A stretch of DNA of 64,000 nt from NCBI RefSeq assembly GCF_010894435.1, contig NZ_JAAIXZ010000013.1:62001-126000 (forward strand), in the 5' to 3' direction. The stretch comes from Pyxidicoccus trucidator. Its GTDB lineage: Bacteria; Myxococcota; Myxococcia; Myxococcales; Myxococcaceae. The notes below the pieces were generated by a model. It had not been told where the DNA came from and searched no databases. It saw only the letters and a list, made by a program, of their open reading frames with translations. The position numbers were made by a program, and so were the translations under genes. Shown in pieces: positions 54,098-64,000 of this stretch; the first letter of the stretch is position 1; each line of letters starts with the position of its first letter.

Positions 54098-56314
54098 TCA
54101 ATGTGTCGGGCGGTTGCGGCCGTAGGCCTGTTCGAGAATCGCGTCGCTCCCGAGGCGGCTCTCCTTCGCGGCCTCCACGTCCAGGCCCTCGCCGTGGCCG
54201 CGCCCGCGTCCCTCGAACACGATTCCCGCACCGTCGAACGAGGCGGTGCGCGGGCACGACGGCAGCTTCAGCCCCGAGCGCAGCAAGTCGCACGGCAACG
54301 AGCCCGCCGACTCGAACGTCGAGTCACCCTCCGTCCGCGTGAGGATGTACCGCGCACGCCCGCTCTCGAAGCGCAGTGACACCAGCGAGCGCCCCACCAG
54401 CCCCTCCACGTCCACGCGCGGGCGCACTTCCCGCCACGGCTCCTGCCCGCCCTGCGAGAACAGCAGCCACTCGTCCCACTTCAGTGGCGGCAGCCCCACT
54501 GCCTTCGCCTCGTCGCGCTGCACGCGCACGGTGCCTCGGAAGGCCTGACAGTGCGTCGTGTCGCAGACGGCGCGGCCCGGGTGCCGGCTGTGCCGCTCGT
54601 TGTGCGCAATCACCCGCGCCAGCGCCACGCGCGCTTCACCCTTCAGCGTCACGTCCTCCGCCACCACCACGCCCGCCGTGTATTGCAGGCGCGTGGTGCG
54701 GAACACGAAGTCGGAGCCCCGCCGCGCCTTCATCGCGCTCGGCGTCGTGGGCACGCCCGGAGGCGGCCGGTACGGCGGAGGCGGCGACCACGTGAAGACA
54801 CCCGCGTAGTCCCGTCCCTCGGGCAGCTTCGGAAAGCGCACGCGCCAGGGAGCTCCCAGGCACACCGCCGCGCCACCTGACGCGAGCCCCTCCAGTCGCG
54901 TCCACTCCGTCGGCGCGGCGCGTGGCGTCCCACCGTCCACCGCGAAGCCCGCGCCCGGGCACTGCGCCTCCACGTCCCTCGCGGGCATCAGCCCTAGCAC
55001 CTGCACACGCGCGGCCTCCAGCCCTGCCTGACGGCGCGCGCGGAACAGCAACTCCGGAATCTCCTGCGCGAAGTGTCGCGGCATCTTCCCCGGCCGCACC
55101 GCCACCAGCACCAGGTCCGCATCCACCGCCGCAATCCAACCGAACTGCGGCCGGCTCGCGGCATCTCTCACGGTGCCCGTCTTGGTGGCCACGCCCGCCA
55201 GCGCCTTCGACGCGGGCAACTCCGACAGCGTGCCGCGCGCCGCGTTGTCCCCCATCAGCGCCACCACGGCCGGCCGCGCCTCCGCCAGCAGTCGGTACGC
55301 CTGTGCCATGCCCCACGGCGACAGCGCCAGAGTGGAGCGCAGCCCAATCGCATCCGCCATGTCCGTCGGAGTCCCCGTCAGCCCCACCGCCTGCAGCACG
55401 GGCCCCCACGCGCCGAACGCCCTCGGCGCCGTGCCCGTCGCCGCCCAGTCCATGAAGTACCCGTTGCACGAGCGCAGCAGCGCGGTGCGCGCGTCCACCT
55501 TCGCGGGCAGGCCCGGCCCACAGGCCCACTCCTGCACGCCCGCGCGCGGCTTCAACACCGGATGCTCCGCTGCCGCCGCGTACACGAAGGGCTTCAGCGT
55601 CGAGCCATAGGGCAGCGCGCGCCGCACGTCGCCCTCCGACAGCAGAACCTCGCCCGAGTGCCGGCTCAGCACCACCGTGGTCGGCGCAGCCGCGCGCACC
55701 TCCACTCCCGCCAATTCGTCGATGGTCAGCGGCGCTACCCACCGCCCCCCGTCCTGGCACTGGCGCAGCCGGCGCGACAGCGCCTTGGGAAACCCCACCG
55801 ACTCGTTCAGCAGCCGCGCCAGCGCCCGCCGCGCCCGGGGCGTGTCCACTGCCGGAGCCGACGCCACCTCCGACGCCGCGCGAGTCAGCGACTGGTAGGG
55901 CGAGTCCCGCCACGCCTCCAGCTCGCCGCTCACCGCGACGGAGAAGGCCTCGTGAAACAGCCGGTCCTCGCTGGCCTGCGGACAGGCCCACCAGAGGAAC
56001 TGGTGCGCCAGCTCGTGCCGCAGCGCCACGCGCAGGCGCTCGTCCAGCACGCCCGGCGCGTTCTGCCGCAACTCCACCCGGCCCGGCCGGCCCTGCGCGT
56101 TGCGCTCGGGGGCCAGGGCCGTGCCGCGCTCCAGGAGGATGGTGCCCGGAGCCTTCGCCGGAGCCGTGCCGGCCTCCGCCACGTACCGGGCCTCCAGCGC
56201 CCTCCAGGCGGAGTCCGCCTCGCGGCGAAGCTCCGCCTCGGGCGTCACGTCACCGCGCGTGACGAAGGTGGGGGTGGCCGCGAGCACCGCGGCCACCGTG
56301 GCGGCCCACAGCAT
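54098..56314 (-). CDS. yfaQ: YfaQ/DUF2300-like protein with metallopeptidase, transpeptidase and SpoIID-like motifs
   Basis: 738-aa exported protein, last gene of the macroglobulin operon, in the place of E. coli yfaQ (DUF2300). Short signal peptide. Residues 100-104 read HELAH with a downstream Glu in RLFHEAF, a zinc-peptidase pattern. Residues of about 210-430 carry all three penicillin-binding transpeptidase motifs: S238TLK, S282CN and K378TG. Towards the C-terminus RVIAHNERHSRHPGRAVCDTTHCQAF and GRGRGHGEGLDVEAAKE resemble SpoIID lytic transglycosylases. The combination suggests peptidoglycan chemistry in the periplasm. The gene begins 3 bp after the macroglobulin stop. Activity of each part is untested. 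Confidence 0.78.
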   Translation of the reverse strand: MLWAATVAAVLAATPTFVTRGDVTPEAELRREADSAWRALEARYVAEAGTAPAKAPGTILLERGTALAPERNAQGRPGRVELRQNAPGVLDERLRVALRHELAHQFLWWACPQASEDRLFHEAFSVAVSGELEAWRDSPYQSLTRAASEVASAPAVDTPRARRALARLLNESVGFPKALSRRLRQCQDGGRWVAPLTIDELAGVEVRAAAPTTVVLSRHSGEVLLSEGDVRRALPYGSTLKPFVYAAAAEHPVLKPRAGVQEWACGPGLPAKVDARTALLRSCNGYFMDWAATGTAPRAFGAWGPVLQAVGLTGTPTDMADAIGLRSTLALSPWGMAQAYRLLAEARPAVVALMGDNAARGTLSELPASKALAGVATKTGTVRDAASRPQFGWIAAVDADLVLVAVRPGKMPRHFAQEIPELLFRARRQAGLEAARVQVLGLMPARDVEAQCPGAGFAVDGGTPRAAPTEWTRLEGLASGGAAVCLGAPWRVRFPKLPEGRDYAGVFTWSPPPPYRPPPGVPTTPSAMKARRGSDFVFRTTRLQYTAGVVVAEDVTLKGEARVALARVIAHNERHSRHPGRAVCDTTHCQAFRGTVRVQRDEAKAVGLPPLKWDEWLLFSQGGQEPWREVRPRVDVEGLVGRSLVSLRFESGRARYILTRTEGDSTFESAGSLPCDLLRSGLKLPSCPRTASFDGAGIVFEGRGRGHGEGLDVEAAKESRLGSDAILEQAYGRNRPTH

Positions 56315-56317
56315 GGG

Positions 56318-59300
56318 CTACAGGTCGCCCGTGCCCTTCTTCGAGGGCACCACCTTCAGCGAGGCCGGGGCTGACCGCCCGTGGATGCTCGCGGCGTACA
56401 TGTCCTCGATGCGCGCGGGAGGCGCGGAGAAGGTGCCCGGGAACTGCGCGCGCAGCACGTAGCCCACGGTGCGCGGGCTGTTGCTCCACCACGCCGGCTC
56501 CTCGAAGAAGAAGGTGGCGCGCTCCGGGTCCAGCACGCGGCGGCGGAGCGCCTCGGGGACCAGGGGCAGCGAGTGCGGAGGACCGCGGAACGCCTTGTCC
56601 TCCTGCAGCGCGACGAAGCCCGCGGGCACCGAGTCCTCCACCACGTAGTACGCCGAGCGCACGCGGCTCTCTCCGCGCGCATCCAGCGTCAGCTCCACGT
56701 AGACCTCCTCGCCCTGGGACACGGTGTCACCCGCCTCCAGCTTCACCTTCCCGCCCTCGCGCAGCACGTAGTAGCTGCGCTGGATGGACATGCCCTCCGC
56801 CTTCGGCTGCACCGCCGACAGCGGAGTGAGCGTGGTGGCCTGCAGCGTGGCCACGCCGTCGAAGCCGCCCACGTCCACCGTGCGCGTCCCCGGCTCCAGC
56901 ACCGCGACGAGGCCCATGCCGCGCGGCGAGAACTTCACCGCGCTCTTCACACCCTTCACCTCCGGCGGCGTCATGCCCCGGAAGGCCTTCGCGTCGCGCT
57001 CCAGCAGCCACAGCGAGTGCAGCAGCGCGGTGCTCCGGTCGAACGTGGACAGGTCCGGCTCGGACAGCATCTCCAGGATGCGGCGGCGCGCGCGGGTGAG
57101 GTCCAGCGTGCCGAAGGACGCGGCATGCGCGGCGATGGCCGTCATGCCCACGCGGCGCAGCGGGAAGCGGAAGAACGCCTCGGACATCTCCATTTCCTGG
57201 CCCGGCTTGTACGCGGCCAGCTTCGCGAAGCCCTGCGAGCTCTGCGACACCAGCGAGTTGATGCGGGCCTGGAGCGCGGGCTCCTTCATGATGCCCGCCT
57301 TCTCCGCGGCCAGCACCGCCAGCGCCAGCGGGTACAGCTGCCCGCCTTCCGCGCCTTCCACCAGCGCGCGCACGCGGGCGGCCTGCTTCGGCCCCTCCAG
57401 CCGCGCCAGCACGTAGGCACGGGTGGCCTCGTACTCGGGCGGCAGGCCCTCCTGCGCCTCCAGCCAGCGCGAGCTGTCGATGATGCGCGGGTCATTGCGG
57501 TCCACCAGCCCCGCCTCCGCCGCGTAGGCCAGGCCGTCCAGGGCGATGAGCGTCAGCGGCAGGCTCGGCGTGTCGTAGCCGCCAAACCAGGTGAAGCCGC
57601 CGCCCTTCACGGAGAGGTTGAGGATGCGCGCGGTGCCCTGCACCGAGCGGCTGCGCGCCTCGGCCAGCAGCGCCTGCGTGTCCGTGTCCAGCTTCGCCAG
57701 CGCGCCCGCCTGCTGGAGCACCTGGTACACCGCCACGTTGGGCACGGTGGTGGACACCAGTTGCTCCAGGCAGCCGTACGGGTACGTGAGCAGCTCGCGC
57801 ACGTTGGAGAGCGCCGCGTCGACAATCGACGGCTGGAGCACCAGCTCCACGCTTGCCAGCGTCGCCTCCTTCGGGGCCGGCACCTCCAGCGCGCCGCCGC
57901 CCCAGGCGCTCACCTTCACGGTGTCCTCCACCGCGGCCGGCTCCACCTGGAAGGACTTCCGGTCCTTGAGCGGGTCCTTGGCGCCCGTCACGTCCACCGT
58001 GAGCTGCGCGGCGCCCGTGCTGGTGGCCTTCAGCGTCACCGGCACCACCTTCTCTCCGCCCTTGGCCAGCTCCACCTTGTGCTGCGACTGGTCCGCCTTG
58101 AGCGAGCCCAGCGACGCCAGCTTCACGTCCAGCAGCTGGCTGCCCGGGGACTTCTCGCCCGCGGACAGGCGCACCGAGGCGAGCGCCTCGTCACCCTCGC
58201 GCAGGAACTGAGGCAGCGCGGCGTAGAGGTTGAGGCCGCCGCGCGTGGCGAACTCGGAGGTGCCCTCGCCGAAGCGGCCGGACGTGTCCGCCGCCACCGC
58301 CGTCACCACCCACAGCGTCTGGTTGGAGGGCAGCGTGAAGCGCACCGTGGCGCGGCCGTCCCGGTCCGTCACCACCACCGGGTCCCAGTGCGCGGTGTCC
58401 TTCTCCAAATCCTTCGCCTGGCGGCTGGGCGGTTTGATGGACGCGAAGGCATGGTCCGGCAGCCCCGCCATCTTCCGCGCCAGCTGCTCGCCGTAGCCGT
58501 AGCCCTGGAACTCGGAGGAGTAGAAGTTCGTCACGTTGTTGCGTGCCGGCGGGTAGAAGAAGTCCAGCACCTTGGGGCGGAACTCGGTCTGGATGGCGTA
58601 GACGGCCTTGTCCACCACGCCCACGGACAGCTGCGCCACGACGCCGCGGCCCTCGTGGTCCACCACGCGCACGTCCAGCGTCTGCTCGGTGAGCGGCGGG
58701 GCCTCCACGCGACGGGGCTGCACCTCCACCGTGAGGGTGCGCTCACGCGGCACCACGCGGAACGCCACCGTGCGCTCCTCCCAGCGGCCCGTGGCCGTGG
58801 GGTACGCGACGGACGCGTACACCGCGCTGCCGAAGCGCTTCTCCACGCTGAAGCTGTGCACCAGCGTGCGGCCCTTCAGCTCCACCACCTGCGTGTCATA
58901 AAGGCTGGCGCCCGCGAGCGTCACCCACACCGGGCCCGCATCACGGCCGCCGGGGCCCCAGCCGTCGGGCATCAGCGCCACCAGCCGAGCCGTGTTGCCC
59001 GGCTCCAGCACGCCGGACAGCGACGCCAGCGTGAGGTTGGGCACCTGCGCCACCGGCTCGTCCGCGCCGCCGATGACGAGCAGCGACTCCTCGCCCTCCC
59101 ACTTCTCGCCCTTCTTGTCCTTCACCACCACGCGCGCCAGCACCGCGCCCACGTCGGACGTGGGCACCTTCTCGCGGTGCGTGCCGTCCGCCGCCGTGGT
59201 GAACGAGCGCTTGCCCAGGCTCTTCTCCTCGCCGTCCGGCTTGCGCGAGAAGAACTCCACCTCGCCCTGCGTGACGCCGTAGGGCTTGCCGGACAGCGTG

Positions 59301-61039
59301 GTGGCGCGCACCGACAGCGTCGCCTCGCCGCCCTTGGCCACCACCGCGTCTGAGTACCGCGCCACACCCAGGACTTCGACCTTGGAGAGGAAGAAGGCGG
59401 TGGTGGAGTTGGCGAACGTCTCCTGGTCATCGCGCGCGCGGATGGTGAGCGAGTACCGGTACGGAATCCGCTCCTCGCCCGCGGCCAGCGCCGGCACGGC
59501 CACTTCGATTTCCGCCTCGCCATTCACGTCGAAGGCGCTCGCGCTGGACCACGGGTCCTCGGTGGCGTCGCGCGCGGCGACGGAGGAGTAGAGCCGCTCG
59601 GGGACGCTCAGCTTGCCCTCCGTGCTGGAGCCCGAGCCGTACGTCACCGCGCTGCCCTGACCGCCCTTGCCGGCGTCATCCACCCACGCGGGCGCGTCCA
59701 GCAGGCTGCGGTAGAGGAACACCTCGTACTTCGCGCCGTCGGGCGTGCCACCGGCGTAGCGGCGGGCGCGCACCTTCACGCGCAGCGTCTCGCCGGGCAC
59801 CACCGTCTCCGACGCCGGCTCCACCTCCAGATAGAACGTGGGCTTCACGTAGTCCTGCACGCGGGCCTCGCCCTGGTGCGGCTGGCCGTCGACTTCGGCC
59901 TCCACGCGCAGCACGCCGGTGCCCAAATCATCGGGCACCTTGAGCGTGCCGTGGAACGCGCCGAACTCGTCCACCGGAGCGCGCGTGCTGAGCGCGCGGC
60001 CTTCCTGCGAGATGAGCTTCACCGTCACCTCGCGCTTCTTCGGAGTGAAGAGGCGCGCGAGGAAGGTGTCCGGCTGGCGCACCAGCCCGCGGTACTTCAC
60101 CTCGTGGCCCGGCTTGTAGATGGGCCGGTCGCTGTAGATGAACACGTCCGGCGCCACCGCCAGCGCGGAGTAGAAGTCCGTGTCCACAATCGCCGTGTCG
60201 CCGCCCGCCGAGGCCGTGGCGAGGATGCGCGGCTCGGACACCTCCAGCGTCACCTCACCCTTGGCGTCCGTCGTCCCCGTCGGGCCCTTGCCCTTGGGCA
60301 GGTACACCTGCACCTGGGCGCCCGCGCGCGGCTTCTGGTCTCTTCCCGCCACGCGCACCAGCACCTCGCCGTCGGTCTGCTTCAGCTGCACCGTCAAGTC
60401 ACTGACGACGAGCACCACCTGCCCCTCCACCCGCCCCTGCACGAGTTGGAGCACGTAGGTGCCGGCCGGCAGCGGCGCGAGCACCACACGGCGCTCCTGG
60501 AAGCCGCTGCTCTCGCCGCCGGTGTTGAAGCCGGGGACGTTGAACTCGCGGTCCGCGCCGCCCAGGTCCAGGTTCAGCCACTGGCTGCGTGCCACGGTGA
60601 AGCCCGGGGGCACGCCCACCAGCTTCTTTGGCCCTTCGGCCACCTTGGCCAGCGGCTCGCCCGAGCCCGGCACGTCCGGCGGCTTGGGCAGCACGTCGCC
60701 CACTTCCGAGCGGAAGGACGGGTTGAGCGTGTCGAGCAACCACATGCCCGGCGCGCTGACGGCGTTGAGGCCCCGGCTGAGCGCGCGGCCCGGGTTGTTC
60801 AGCGTCGGCGGCGTCTGGTACGCGCGGCGCAGGTCACCCTGCGCGCGGATGAAGGCGTCCAGGTTGTCCGGCTTGAGGACGCGCAGCTCCACCGGGCCCT
60901 TGTCCTCGAAGGCCACGTCCACCGCGACGGGCTCCTGGCTGCCATAGGAGCGGGGCACGGTGATGTAGAGCGGCTTGGCGGCAGCCACGCCGGACAGCAC
61001 CAGCGCGGCGAGCGCCGCGAAACGAGCAACACTCTTCAT
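56318..61039 (-). CDS. yfaS: Alpha-2-macroglobulin family protein (YfaS type)
   Basis: 1573-aa periplasmic protease-trapping protein related to animal alpha-2-macroglobulin. Signal peptide MKSVARFAALAALVLSGVAAA without lipobox Cys, so it is soluble or tethered by partners. MG domains fill the first half (VFIYSDRPIYKPGHEVKYRGLVRQP marks the MG1-MG3 type). The thioester motif is present as YPYGCLEQ with Cys1090, followed by the helical toroid thioester domain and a C-terminal receptor-like domain. On cleavage of the bait region the thioester would bind the attacking protease. Its start overlaps the DUF2138 stop by 4 bp (ATGA). Confidence 0.92.
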   Translation of the reverse strand: MKSVARFAALAALVLSGVAAAKPLYITVPRSYGSQEPVAVDVAFEDKGPVELRVLKPDNLDAFIRAQGDLRRAYQTPPTLNNPGRALSRGLNAVSAPGMWLLDTLNPSFRSEVGDVLPKPPDVPGSGEPLAKVAEGPKKLVGVPPGFTVARSQWLNLDLGGADREFNVPGFNTGGESSGFQERRVVLAPLPAGTYVLQLVQGRVEGQVVLVVSDLTVQLKQTDGEVLVRVAGRDQKPRAGAQVQVYLPKGKGPTGTTDAKGEVTLEVSEPRILATASAGGDTAIVDTDFYSALAVAPDVFIYSDRPIYKPGHEVKYRGLVRQPDTFLARLFTPKKREVTVKLISQEGRALSTRAPVDEFGAFHGTLKVPDDLGTGVLRVEAEVDGQPHQGEARVQDYVKPTFYLEVEPASETVVPGETLRVKVRARRYAGGTPDGAKYEVFLYRSLLDAPAWVDDAGKGGQGSAVTYGSGSSTEGKLSVPERLYSSVAARDATEDPWSSASAFDVNGEAEIEVAVPALAAGEERIPYRYSLTIRARDDQETFANSTTAFFLSKVEVLGVARYSDAVVAKGGEATLSVRATTLSGKPYGVTQGEVEFFSRKPDGEEKSLGKRSFTTAADGTHREKVPTSDVGAVLARVVVKDKKGEKWEGEESLLVIGGADEPVAQVPNLTLASLSGVLEPGNTARLVALMPDGWGPGGRDAGPVWVTLAGASLYDTQVVELKGRTLVHSFSVEKRFGSAVYASVAYPTATGRWEERTVAFRVVPRERTLTVEVQPRRVEAPPLTEQTLDVRVVDHEGRGVVAQLSVGVVDKAVYAIQTEFRPKVLDFFYPPARNNVTNFYSSEFQGYGYGEQLARKMAGLPDHAFASIKPPSRQAKDLEKDTAHWDPVVVTDRDGRATVRFTLPSNQTLWVVTAVAADTSGRFGEGTSEFATRGGLNLYAALPQFLREGDEALASVRLSAGEKSPGSQLLDVKLASLGSLKADQSQHKVELAKGGEKVVPVTLKATSTGAAQLTVDVTGAKDPLKDRKSFQVEPAAVEDTVKVSAWGGGALEVPAPKEATLASVELVLQPSIVDAALSNVRELLTYPYGCLEQLVSTTVPNVAVYQVLQQAGALAKLDTDTQALLAEARSRSVQGTARILNLSVKGGGFTWFGGYDTPSLPLTLIALDGLAYAAEAGLVDRNDPRIIDSSRWLEAQEGLPPEYEATRAYVLARLEGPKQAARVRALVEGAEGGQLYPLALAVLAAEKAGIMKEPALQARINSLVSQSSQGFAKLAAYKPGQEMEMSEAFFRFPLRRVGMTAIAAHAASFGTLDLTRARRRILEMLSEPDLSTFDRSTALLHSLWLLERDAKAFRGMTPPEVKGVKSAVKFSPRGMGLVAVLEPGTRTVDVGGFDGVATLQATTLTPLSAVQPKAEGMSIQRSYYVLREGGKVKLEAGDTVSQGEEVYVELTLDARGESRVRSAYYVVEDSVPAGFVALQEDKAFRGPPHSLPLVPEALRRRVLDPERATFFFEEPAWWSNSPRTVGYVLRAQFPGTFSAPPARIEDMYAASIHGRSAPASLKVVPSKKGTGDL

Positions 61040-62643
61040 GACCCGAAACCTCCAGGAACCAGCGAATCGCCCTGCACGGTGCCGCGCAGGCCCAGGTACG
61101 GCAGCGACTCCAGGTCGCGCCGCGCCGCTTCGATTTCAGGGGGCGCCGCATTCGGCATCGGCGCGTTGCGCCCCACGCGGGACTCGGACAGGAAGCCGTC
61201 CATGGTGAGGCCGCTGAGCAGCCGTCCCGTATTCACCCCAAAGGCCACCGACGTGGGCGCGCGCAGCCCCGCCACCACCGGGCCCGCCGCGTTGAGCAGG
61301 TTGGGTGTCTTGCCCTCACACGCCTTGCGCAGCCGGTCCAGCTCGGCGGGGTTGGACGCCATCACCACGTGGTTGCAGAACTTGTCGGCCACCAGCCGGT
61401 TGTAGCCTCCGGAGAACAGCCCCTCCAGCGCGGCCCCGTCCTCGGTGCGGCCCCACAGCACGGCCATCTCCAGCGGCAGCGCCGAGTCCCCGCGCGGCGT
61501 CCACACCAGCGCCACCTGGCGCGTGCGCGTGGCGCCCTTGCCTCCGCCTTCCTTCCAGAACTCGCTCAGCGTTTCGGGCTCCAGCGACTCCGGCAGCTTG
61601 AGCTGGAGCGCCAGCAGCACCGGCGTCTCCTCGGGCACCAGCTTGAGCAGGTCATCGGACAGCGGCGCCGCGTCCAGGCGCGCGGGGCCATCCATGAGCT
61701 GGCCGGCGATGCCTCGGCCCACCAGCTTGTTGCCCTCCACGCCGAACTGGAGCCGCGCGCCCGGCGCGAGGCCGACGATGCTCGTCAAGAGCTGCACCTC
61801 GCGGCCGTACGCGTCCGGGTCGAAGCCCAGCTCCACGTCGACGTTGTCCGCGGCCTCCAGCGCCGGCAGCTCGGCACAGAGGCCCTGGAGCACCGCCACC
61901 GGGTGACGCGCCAGCACCATCCGGTCCGCCGAGCGCCCCGCCCACAGCGTCTGCTCCGCCACCAGCCAGCGGCTCATCTCATGCGTGCCGGGGACGCCGC
62001 CGGGGCAGCTCTCCGCCTTCATGCCGCCGCGGTTGGCCACGCCGTCCAGCGCGTCGAAGGCCGCCGTGGTGGTGTCTCCCGGCTTGGGGAGGATGAAGGC
62101 CGGCGTGCTCGCGCGCGCGTCACCGGCGAACCACACCACGCGGAACGGCGCGTCCAGGAGCTGGTTGGCGACGAGGTCCAGCACCGCGCCCTTGAACTCG
62201 CCCTTCAGGTCCTCGCCGGTGGAGCCGAGGAACGCGGCCCACCCGCCCACGAAGCCCTGGCCCAGCGGCTTGCCGAGCTGCTCCTTGAGCCACGCGTTGC
62301 CAGCCATCGCCTCGCGCACCTTGCCGGGGTGGTGCACGTCTACCCAGATGGCGGAGGGCGCGGAGGTGCCGGGCACCTCCATGGTGGTGACCTGGGTGTC
62401 GGGCATGCCCTCCACCTCGGCGCCCGCGCTGGCGGGGCCCGTTCGCTCACCCGTGACGAGCAGCGCGCCACCACCCGAGCCACCGGACTTCGCGCCACGG
62501 CGGCCCAGGAGGAAGCCTCCCGCGACGGCGGCGCCGACGAGGGCGGTGATGAGGCCGATGAGCATGGCCTTGGGAGGACCGCGCCGGGGAGGCGGGGCCG
62601 CCGGAGGAGGCGTGCCCGGAGGCGGGCTCGACGGAGACGTCAT
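61036..62643 (-). CDS. yfaA: DUF2138 protein (YfaA-like)
   Basis: 535-aa inner-membrane-anchored protein of the DUF2138/YfaA type, always linked to YfaS macroglobulins. A Pro-rich cytoplasmic stretch precedes one membrane helix (PKAMLIGLITALVGAAVAGGFLLGRRG), and the rest is periplasmic. The periplasmic part (about 95-535) shows WVDVHHPGKVREAMAGNAWLKEQLGKPL, RVVWFAGDA and SRWLVAEQTLWAGRSADRMVLARHPVAVLQGLC. No enzyme motif seen. It may hold the macroglobulin at the membrane. ATG 62643 overlaps the DUF1175 stop (ATGA). Confidence 0.8.
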   Translation of the reverse strand: MTSPSSPPPGTPPPAAPPPRRGPPKAMLIGLITALVGAAVAGGFLLGRRGAKSGGSGGGALLVTGERTGPASAGAEVEGMPDTQVTTMEVPGTSAPSAIWVDVHHPGKVREAMAGNAWLKEQLGKPLGQGFVGGWAAFLGSTGEDLKGEFKGAVLDLVANQLLDAPFRVVWFAGDARASTPAFILPKPGDTTTAAFDALDGVANRGGMKAESCPGGVPGTHEMSRWLVAEQTLWAGRSADRMVLARHPVAVLQGLCAELPALEAADNVDVELGFDPDAYGREVQLLTSIVGLAPGARLQFGVEGNKLVGRGIAGQLMDGPARLDAAPLSDDLLKLVPEETPVLLALQLKLPESLEPETLSEFWKEGGGKGATRTRQVALVWTPRGDSALPLEMAVLWGRTEDGAALEGLFSGGYNRLVADKFCNHVVMASNPAELDRLRKACEGKTPNLLNAAGPVVAGLRAPTSVAFGVNTGRLLSGLTMDGFLSESRVGRNAPMPNAAPPEIEAARRDLESLPYLGLRGTVQGDSLVPGGFGS

Positions 62644-63227
62644 GGCATCCACTCCTTGAAGCGGAAGAAGCCGAGGAAGCCGGCGTTGTTCGGCACCGGG
62701 CGCCACTCCAGCGGCGCCTCGGTGGCAAGGTTGTGGAGGAGTCCGGTGCGCACCGCGGCGCCCTTCTCCCCCGGGTGGTAGACGACGCGAGCGGGCGCGT
62801 GGGCCCGGTCCTCCGGGCGCACCACCAGCATCAGGTGGAAGACGGTGCCGGAGTCGTGCTCCTGGCGGAAGGCGAGGATGTCGCCCGTGCGCAGCGCCTC
62901 GCGCGTGGCGTCGTCACGGCCCAGCGGCGTGAAGCTCTGGCCGAGCAGCGTCTCCGCGTCCGCGAAGTCCGAGGGCTGGCCGCGCTCGTTCTTCCACAGC
63001 GGGGTGGCGAGCCGCTCCGGGGCGACATTCTTGTACGCGACGCGGTAGGCGAAGCGGATGAGGCCCGCGCAGTCGCGCTGGTCCGGGTGCCATGCGGCGT
63101 CCTGCTTGCGAAGCTGCGCGAGCGCCACGCTCGCCACGTGCCGCCGCAGCAGCACGTCGCGCGTCTCGGGCGCGGGCGCCGCGGGTGCGGTCGCCTCCAG
63201 CAGCAGGAGCAGGGACAGGGCGAGCAT
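62640..63227 (-). CDS. yfaT: DUF1175 protein (YfaT-like)
   Basis: 195-aa exported protein of the DUF1175/YfaT family, second in the visible part of the operon. Signal peptide MLALSLLLLLEATAPAAPA. The sequence around RDCAGLIRFAYRVAY (Cys53) and GDILAFRQ...VFHLMLVV (His131) resembles the Cys and His sites of NlpC/P60 peptidoglycan endopeptidases, so it may cut cell-wall peptides. That is inference from motif alone. Its stop overlaps the DUF2138 start by 4 bp, and it starts 33 bp after the DUF2135 stop. Confidence 0.82.
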   Translation of the reverse strand: MLALSLLLLLEATAPAAPAPETRDVLLRRHVASVALAQLRKQDAAWHPDQRDCAGLIRFAYRVAYKNVAPERLATPLWKNERGQPSDFADAETLLGQSFTPLGRDDATREALRTGDILAFRQEHDSGTVFHLMLVVRPEDRAHAPARVVYHPGEKGAAVRTGLLHNLATEAPLEWRPVPNNAGFLGFFRFKEWMP

Positions 63228-63260: not shown

Positions 63261-64000
63261 TCAGTAGCCTTCGCCTTCGCCGCCGCTGTCGCCGCTGGTC
63301 TGAAGCTCCTTGAGGGCCTCCGCCAGGTTGGTGGGCCAGTCCGGGTGCTTGGGCTTGGGGTCCTGCGCGGGCACGTACACCTCGGCCTGTCCGTCGCCGA
63401 GCACGTTCACCCAGGCCAGCACGCGGGTGGTGCCCGGGGTGGCCAGCGGAATGCGCACCATGCGGCGGATTTCGTTCGGCGTGCCCTCGAAGAGCGCGAG
63501 GTTGAGGGTGGCCACGGTGTGGGCCTTGTCGCCGCTGGGCCAGTAGTTGGTGGCCACCAGGTACACGCCCTTGGGCGGCGCGCGGTGGATGTAGAGGTAC
63601 GGGCCGTAGGCGGGCTGGTCGAAGTCACCGCCCTGCTCGTTGAGGAAGAAGGTGCCGCCGGAGGGGCTCTCGGTGTCGGCCCAGTACACGTGGGCCATCT
63701 CCCCCACCTGGAGCTGGTCACCGGCCTCGCTGGAGTCGGTGGGCTCGTAGATGTGCAGGTCGGTGTAGACGCCGTCGGTGTCGCTGGTGAGGACGACCTT
63801 GAAGGGGACGGGCGGAATCTGCGCGTAGCTCGTCGCCTGGGTGCGCGCGGTGCCGGCCTGGTTGGTGGCCATCACCGTGACGATGTTCTTCCCGCTGGCG
63901 GCGGGGAACTTGCGGCTGAAGCGACCGCCGTAGGTGCGCATGAGGTAGCGGTCGCCGTTGATGGAGACCACCACCGGGTCGATGGTGGTGTCGCTGATGG
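63261..64000 (-). CDS. yfaP: DUF2135 protein (YfaP-like), N-terminus cut by window edge
   Basis: 246 codons of the C-terminal part are visible. The sequence has a strand-rich start (PVVVSINGDRYLMRTYGGRFSRKFPAASGKNIVTVMATNQAG), then VPFKVVLTSDTDGVYTDLHIYEPTD, HVYWADTESPSGGTFFLNEQGGDFDQPAYGPYLYIHRAPPKGVYLVATNYWPSG. This is the DUF2135/YfaP pattern of periplasmic proteins with an Ig/VWA-like fold that travel with YfaS macroglobulins. First visible gene of the operon; the start lies beyond position 64000. Confidence 0.85.
   Translation of the reverse strand, partial: ISDTTIDPVVVSINGDRYLMRTYGGRFSRKFPAASGKNIVTVMATNQAGTARTQATSYAQIPPVPFKVVLTSDTDGVYTDLHIYEPTDSSEAGDQLQVGEMAHVYWADTESPSGGTFFLNEQGGDFDQPAYGPYLYIHRAPPKGVYLVATNYWPSGDKAHTVATLNLALFEGTPNEIRRMVRIPLATPGTTRVLAWVNVLGDGQAEVYVPAQDPKPKHPDWPTNLAEALKELQTSGDSGGEGEGY

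Follow-up and report, generated by a model that had tools for sequence, protein, structure and literature searches.

Here, we found that the last gene of a macroglobulin operon in Pyxidicoccus trucidator encodes, on the minus strand, a single 738-aa protein in which three modules stand in series: a gluzincin, a PBP transpeptidase fold and a SpoIID fold. The modules are known ones in a new combination, which had been anticipated in part for E. coli YfaQ. It lies within the window (the whole stretch of 64,000 nucleotides that was analysed) and comprises the following features, with residues numbered along the protein:

54098..56314, minus strand: tri-domain protein, 738 aa, last gene of the mag/yfa-type operon and positional counterpart of E. 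coli yfaQ
56273..56314, minus strand: N-terminal hydrophobic stretch, residues 1-14, a probable signal peptide with a low-confidence predicted helix (2-10)
55700..56275, minus strand: gluzincin-fold module, residues 14-205 (isolated-module structure prediction and structure comparison)
56003..56017, minus strand: HELAH zinc motif, residues 100-104 (H100, E101, H104), invariant in 25/25 full-length relatives
55949..55951, minus strand: E122 on the second helix, candidate third zinc ligand (gluzincin Glu), invariant in 25/25
55025..55699, minus strand: PBP transpeptidase-fold module, residues 206-430 (Foldseek, VIA-align and profile comparison)
55592..55603, minus strand: SxxK motif S238-T-L-K241, S and K invariant in 25/25
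55463..55471, minus strand: SxN motif S282-C-N284, invariant in 25/25
55175..55183, minus strand: KTG motif K378-T-G380 (KSG in some relatives), K and G invariant in 25/25
54110..55024, minus strand: SpoIID-fold module, residues 431-735 (profile search and motif alignment)
54656..54658, minus strand: E553, by alignment the equivalent of the catalytic E101 of C. difficile SpoIID (PMC6221140), invariant in 25/25
54545..54586, minus strand: RHPGRAVCDTTHCQ, residues 577-590, in which H578, C584, H588 and C589 align with the SpoIID zinc ligands H134, C140, H145 and C146 (PMC6221140)
54182..54211, minus strand: SpoIID tail motif GRGRGHGEGL, residues 702-711 (alignment and conservation)

A PDB sequence search with the 738-aa protein alone returned chance matches only and was thus uninformative, so that profiles were required. 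The AlphaFold model of the whole protein, built on an alignment of 27 sequences, reached a mean pLDDT of 89.4 and a pTM of 0.85; its VIA neighbour list was filled by PBPs and is therefore informative on the transpeptidase module, not on the other two. Predicted alone, the N-terminal module (pLDDT 91) found metallopeptidases exclusively among its listed structural neighbours (M1 aminopeptidases, M9 collagenases, thermolysin and others), with an M1 aminopeptidase as the best match (Z 10.4 over 171 residues). Since the Foldseek E-values were modest (0.02), the fold call rests on the Z score, the motif position and the conservation taken together. In the model, HExxH lies within helix 92-110 and E122 within helix 118-129, and residues 14-205 are accordingly predicted to adopt a gluzincin fold (zincin MA clan) with the HExxH and a Glu on the second helix. 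The module shares the HExxH-x17-E spacing, the upper beta-sheet and the active-site helices with the M1, M9 and M4 folds, but represents the small catalytic core only and matches no named family above cut-off; in relatives, the matches to named peptidase families (M78, SprT, eCIS_core) are all sub-threshold.

Residues 206-430 superimpose on P. aeruginosa PBP3 over 216 residues (VIA-align, Z 20.4, rmsd 2.8), and the top Foldseek matches are class A PBPs (PBP1b, E 1e-7), with class D beta-lactamases matching too. The modelled placement of the motifs is that of a PBP-type SxxK acyltransferase: SxxK starts helix 241-247, SxN lies between helices 275-280 and 284-292, and KTG is found on strand 376-383. 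We thus predict this fold for the module, with SxxK, SxN and KTG (KSG) in the canonical sequence and on the secondary-structure elements expected for them. The single-sequence match to Pfam Transpeptidase PF00905 (residues 213-291, E 0.02, 14.6 bits) stays below the gathering cut-off of 22.1, and the module is therefore assigned to the fold, not to PF00905 membership. The first-pass annotation had drawn a parallel to the yfhM-pbpC locus, where a macroglobulin gene has the PBP1C gene as its partner. The genomic side of this parallel holds, as two PBP1C-like genes stand beside thioester macroglobulins in the same genome (G000:C7:370728-375302 and G000:C18:91002-94750), and the module shares its fold (Z about 20) and the SxxK/SxN/KTG motifs with transpeptidases such as PBP1C of the pbpC-yfhM locus, likewise a neighbour of a thioester macroglobulin. 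The closeness to PBP1C itself, however, is not demonstrable: the module is compact (about 225 residues) and has no glycosyltransferase domain, and we do not claim a PBP1C origin, the scores against nine same-genome PBPs and the PDB being too weak to rank.

For the C-terminal part, a profile search of the PDB returned SpoIID as the first three solved proteins matched (E 3e-5 to 2e-4). The single-sequence match to Pfam SpoIID PF08486 (residues 561-599, E 0.05) scores 14.7 against a cut-off of 23; in a Bdellovibrionota relative (L101) the score is 25.9, above the cut-off, and at E<1 the model finds 21 of the 27 relatives. E553 closes helix 542-553 of the AlphaFold model, and the zinc ligands are retained in 23 to 25 of the 25 full-length relatives. 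On sequence grounds, residues 431-735 are hence predicted to be related to the SpoIID lytic transglycosylases, with the catalytic Glu and the zinc ligands known from published work in place. In C. difficile SpoIID, which acts after the amidase SpoIIP, the substitutions E101A, C140A and H145A each abolish in vitro activity, and the H134/C140/H145/C146 zinc site is absent from Bacillus SpoIID (PMC6221140). The module thus has the catalytic Glu, the four zinc ligands and the GxGHG tail in common with SpoIID (PF08486), but is fused behind a transpeptidase fold, has no sporulation-gene neighbours and scores sub-cut-off in the 738-aa protein. Two stand-alone genes (L102 in G147 and L103 in G146) contain the SpoIID half only (residues 428-733), and a macroglobulin gene is absent from their fetched flanks. 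An acidobacterial SpoIID protein (L105:33-1616) has a C-terminal part that looks zincin-like by eye with a broken motif, YEVAW replacing HExxH; this part has no Pfam match.

Are these active sites a conserved property of the family? The 25 full-length relatives compared come from Myxococcota and Bdellovibrionota and range from 100 down to 25% identity to the query. They share just 55 of the 738 residues without exception, and these include every one of the 11 catalytic positions tested (H100, E101, H104 and E122; S238, K241, S282, N284, K378 and G380; E553). The corresponding enrichment (hypergeometric p about 1e-13) is a guide only, as the rows are related. The first-pass annotation had reported from the letters alone a HELAH at 100-104 with a later Glu, the three transpeptidase motifs in order, and CDTTHCQ with a GRGxGHG tail in one protein, and had named a lack of conservation or an unrelated fold as refuting outcomes. 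Its observation is confirmed throughout: the later Glu is E122, the triad reads STLK (238-241), SCN (282-284) and KTG (378-380), CDTTHCQ lies at 584-590 and GRGRGHGEG at 702-710, the zinc ligands align with those of SpoIID, every tested residue is invariant, and the folds found by structure (PBPs, Z 20.4; metallopeptidases, Z 10.4) and by profile (SpoIID, E 3e-5) are the expected ones. Two corrections concern the strand, which is minus, and the family name DUF2300 (PF10062), which does not apply, because the 738-aa protein has no PF10062 match and the domain is found in the E. coli and Citrobacter counterpart only.

Of 195 Myxococcota genomes, 82 have a relative. A sample of 241 genomes from Bdellovibrionota, the phylum of a Bdellovibrionales match, yielded six that do. 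A wider scan covered 84,980 species genomes and started from two peptide patterns, which may have let more distant relatives in other phyla escape. The relatives that it confirmed beyond a SpoIID-like stretch were labelled Myxococcota or Bdellovibrionota, except for one Comamonas and some labelled merely 'bacterium' or 'Deltaproteobacteria'. The locus labelled Comamonas sp. KCTC 72670 (L066, BNCN01000008.1) is 77% identical to Myxococcus and is probably mislabelled or contaminated. A search of plasmids and viral contigs for further gammaproteobacterial relatives gave none beyond Citrobacter.

The genes in front of the tri-domain gene define the operon:

56318..61039, minus strand: alpha-2-macroglobulin (A2M), 1573 aa, with an intact thioester motif YPYGCLEQ (Pfam MG2, A2M, bMG10 and others)
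61036..62706, minus strand: 556-aa protein with an N-terminal TM-like segment, in the place of DUF2138/YfaA/MagB (size and position)
62640..63227, minus strand: DUF1175 protein, YfaT/MagC counterpart (Pfam), with an NlpC/P60-like triad C53, H131, H151, invariant or nearly so
63261..63974, minus strand: DUF2135 protein, YfaP/MagF or MagA counterpart (Pfam), which may run past the window edge

These genes are tightly packed in the order DUF2135, DUF1175, 556-aa TM-like protein, A2M and tri-domain protein, and with DUF1175 and DUF2135 genes near the A2M gene the operon is of the mag/yfa type. The 556-aa protein gave no Pfam or profile match to DUF2138/YfaA, while its size, TM-like segment and place fit. 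Among relatives whose flanking sequence was long enough, almost all have the A2M gene immediately upstream of the tri-domain gene. Here, the A2M stop and the tri-domain start (56315-56320) read TAG CCC ATG in the same frame with one codon between them, so that a readthrough would fuse both proteins. PADLOC gave zero matches, and no sigma-70 promoter or terminator-like site was detected in the operon region. The Pyxidicoccus genome holds six A2M matches in all, the mag-type locus included.

The DUF1175 neighbour is likely an NlpC/P60-like cysteine peptidase, as suggested by its conserved residues: D52-C53-A54-G55 and H131 are kept in 34 of 34 alignment rows and H151 in 33 of 34 (myxobacteria, Bdellovibrionota, Citrobacter and E. 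coli), the motifs DCAG, HLM and YHxG persist from myxobacteria to E. coli YfaT, and YfaT itself matches the Pfam NlpC/P60 family at E 4e-4, just under the cut-off. Among the operons examined from Myxococcota and Bdellovibrionota, every A2M has kept the thioester motif, with a single, fragmentary exception. The motif is absent from the Citrobacter mag-type A2M and from E. coli YfaS, a pseudogene. P. aeruginosa MagD equally has no thioester, and Type II A2Ms are defined by lacking CXEQ (PMC5764988). The Type II operon magABCDEF shares with the present one DUF2135, DUF1175, a TM protein, an A2M and a gene in the MagE position; its A2M, however, belongs to a class without the thioester, and since YPYGCLEQ is present here, the Type II label misfits these operons.

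The tri-domain protein is a positional and partly a sequence-level counterpart of E. coli YfaQ, whose gene occupies the same position in the yfaA-yfaT-yfaS-yfaQ-yfaP cluster. Both genes directly follow the A2M gene of a DUF1175-A2M operon, both proteins match SpoIID (YfaQ above the Pfam cut-off) and contain an HExxH, and the transpeptidase parts are homologous by hhalign (P 1e-6, probability 82%, 206 columns). They differ in that the zincin is N-terminal here, whereas the HEYLH of YfaQ lies at the far C-terminus, inside DUF2300. The two lineages thus seem to carry the metal module at opposite ends of the protein, a change of domain order read from motifs and Pfam matches in two enteric sequences; hhalign with these two sequences detected no homology of the HEYLH region to the N-terminal zincin, nor of the YfaQ SpoIID part to the SpoIID module. 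YfaQ and its Citrobacter relative further differ by SCG in place of SxN, KTW in place of KTG, and by having neither the SpoIID HC zinc pair nor the GHG tail. An earlier study described YfaQ in 2025 as bipartite, transpeptidase-like and SpoIID-like, with no metallopeptidase part, and found that yfaQ deletion widens cells and groups with wall-endopeptidase mutants, in a cluster with mepK, mepS and nlpI deletions (PMC12282094). By gene order, P. aeruginosa MagE (PA4488) is the probable YfaQ counterpart. The mag operon and magD were reported to protect against wall-targeting T6SS effectors (Nature Communications 2025, PMC12663445).

From the observed architecture, motif conservation and operon context we infer export, catalysis, substrates and a repair function, and we consider it probable that the protein is a secreted multi-domain enzyme of peptidoglycan remodelling or repair, which works in the cell envelope as a member of a Mag-type macroglobulin complex. 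The SpoIID module would cut glycan strands without stem peptides. Because SpoIID-type enzymes require such stem-peptide-free glycan, candidates for supplying it are the zinc peptidase in the same protein and the NlpC/P60-like neighbour, one or both of which may strip or trim the stem peptides first, while the serine module of the transpeptidase fold would re-link or trim peptides. Combined, the modules could form a cut-and-reseal unit at the damaged wall, with the macroglobulin meanwhile trapping incoming proteases; the zinc peptidase might also, in a second role, cleave the macroglobulin bait region. The locus, with wall-enzyme folds beside a macroglobulin protease trap, suggests a kit for cell-wall repair or remodelling. 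Indirect backing comes from other species, namely the wider yfaQ-deletion cells of E. coli and, in P. aeruginosa, the protection by magD against T6SS effectors and the change in MagD on deletion of magE. The first-pass interpretation of a wall enzyme repairing what a protease-armed attacker breaks is partly supported, with the repair as a putative role. Three observations stand against a remodelling or repair function: the SCG, the KTW and the lost SpoIID zinc site of enteric YfaQ indicate that full catalysis is dispensable somewhere; MagE is regarded by the P. aeruginosa authors as cytoplasmic and as not stably bound to MagD (PMC5764988); and the putative signal peptide here has an n-region without charge.

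The bait-region role borders on a different and, in our judgement, unlikely explanation, in which the protein is a processing factor that mainly serves the proteolytic or chaperone-like handling of the macroglobulin. Its gluzincin would cleave the A2M or help it to mature, and the folds of the wall enzymes would chiefly anchor the complex at the peptidoglycan. Indeed, deletion of magE, which occupies the same position in P. aeruginosa, alters the amount and processing of MagD, and that study proposed that MagE acts in this processing (PMC5764988); the tri-domain gene lies directly behind the A2M gene and supplies a zinc-peptidase fold with the full HExxH...E. A processing factor would, however, leave the invariance of S238, K241, N284, K378 and E553 unexplained. 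The same invariance makes a pseudoenzyme improbable, in which the three folds would act as a scaffold or as a sensor of the wall, bind stem peptide and glycan, and bring the macroglobulin complex to sites of wall damage without catalysis. Such a scaffold would fit the retention of the gene in enteric relatives despite degraded active sites, and the transpeptidase and SpoIID matches below the Pfam gathering thresholds, which go with very divergent modules; but catalytic residues among the 55 invariant positions in Myxococcota and Bdellovibrionota are the opposite of what a pseudoenzyme predicts. That intact versions occur in two phyla containing predators would agree with an offensive enzyme, exported to digest prey walls while the macroglobulin shields it from prey proteases. 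We regard this as very improbable, given that so few sampled Bdellovibrionota genomes are positive, that E. coli and Citrobacter have the same operon type, and that a transpeptidase fold is unexpected in a secreted lysin.

Returning to a remodelling or repair enzyme within the Mag-type complex, the joint loss of the thioester and of active-site residues in enteric bacteria hints, from two sequenced examples and the literature, at a functional coupling. We tentatively suggest, as a doubtful extension, that the three-active-site polypeptide, the thioester macroglobulin and the NlpC/P60-like peptidase represent the intact ancestral Mag form, and that the gammaproteobacterial thioester and partner sites decayed together. 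In a limited literature check that covered few subscription papers, we found neither a paper joining SpoIID, a transpeptidase and a macroglobulin nor a mention of DUF2300. As far as we found, four elements are new: the zincin module of the tri-domain protein, the full active-site set that enteric YfaQ has partly lost, the intact macroglobulin thioester of these operons, and the likely NlpC/P60-like cysteine peptidase nature of DUF1175.

In summary, these findings touch on two open questions, the roles of the partners of bacterial macroglobulins and what underlies the protection that the mag operon gives against wall-degrading toxins, and the tri-domain protein offers concrete catalytic residues for mutagenesis. 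They suggest that wall enzymes accompany a protease trap in both bacterial macroglobulin loci. The well-studied Pseudomonas and E. coli systems may be reduced versions of one that myxobacteria and some Bdellovibrionota have kept in a state predicted to be catalytically complete.
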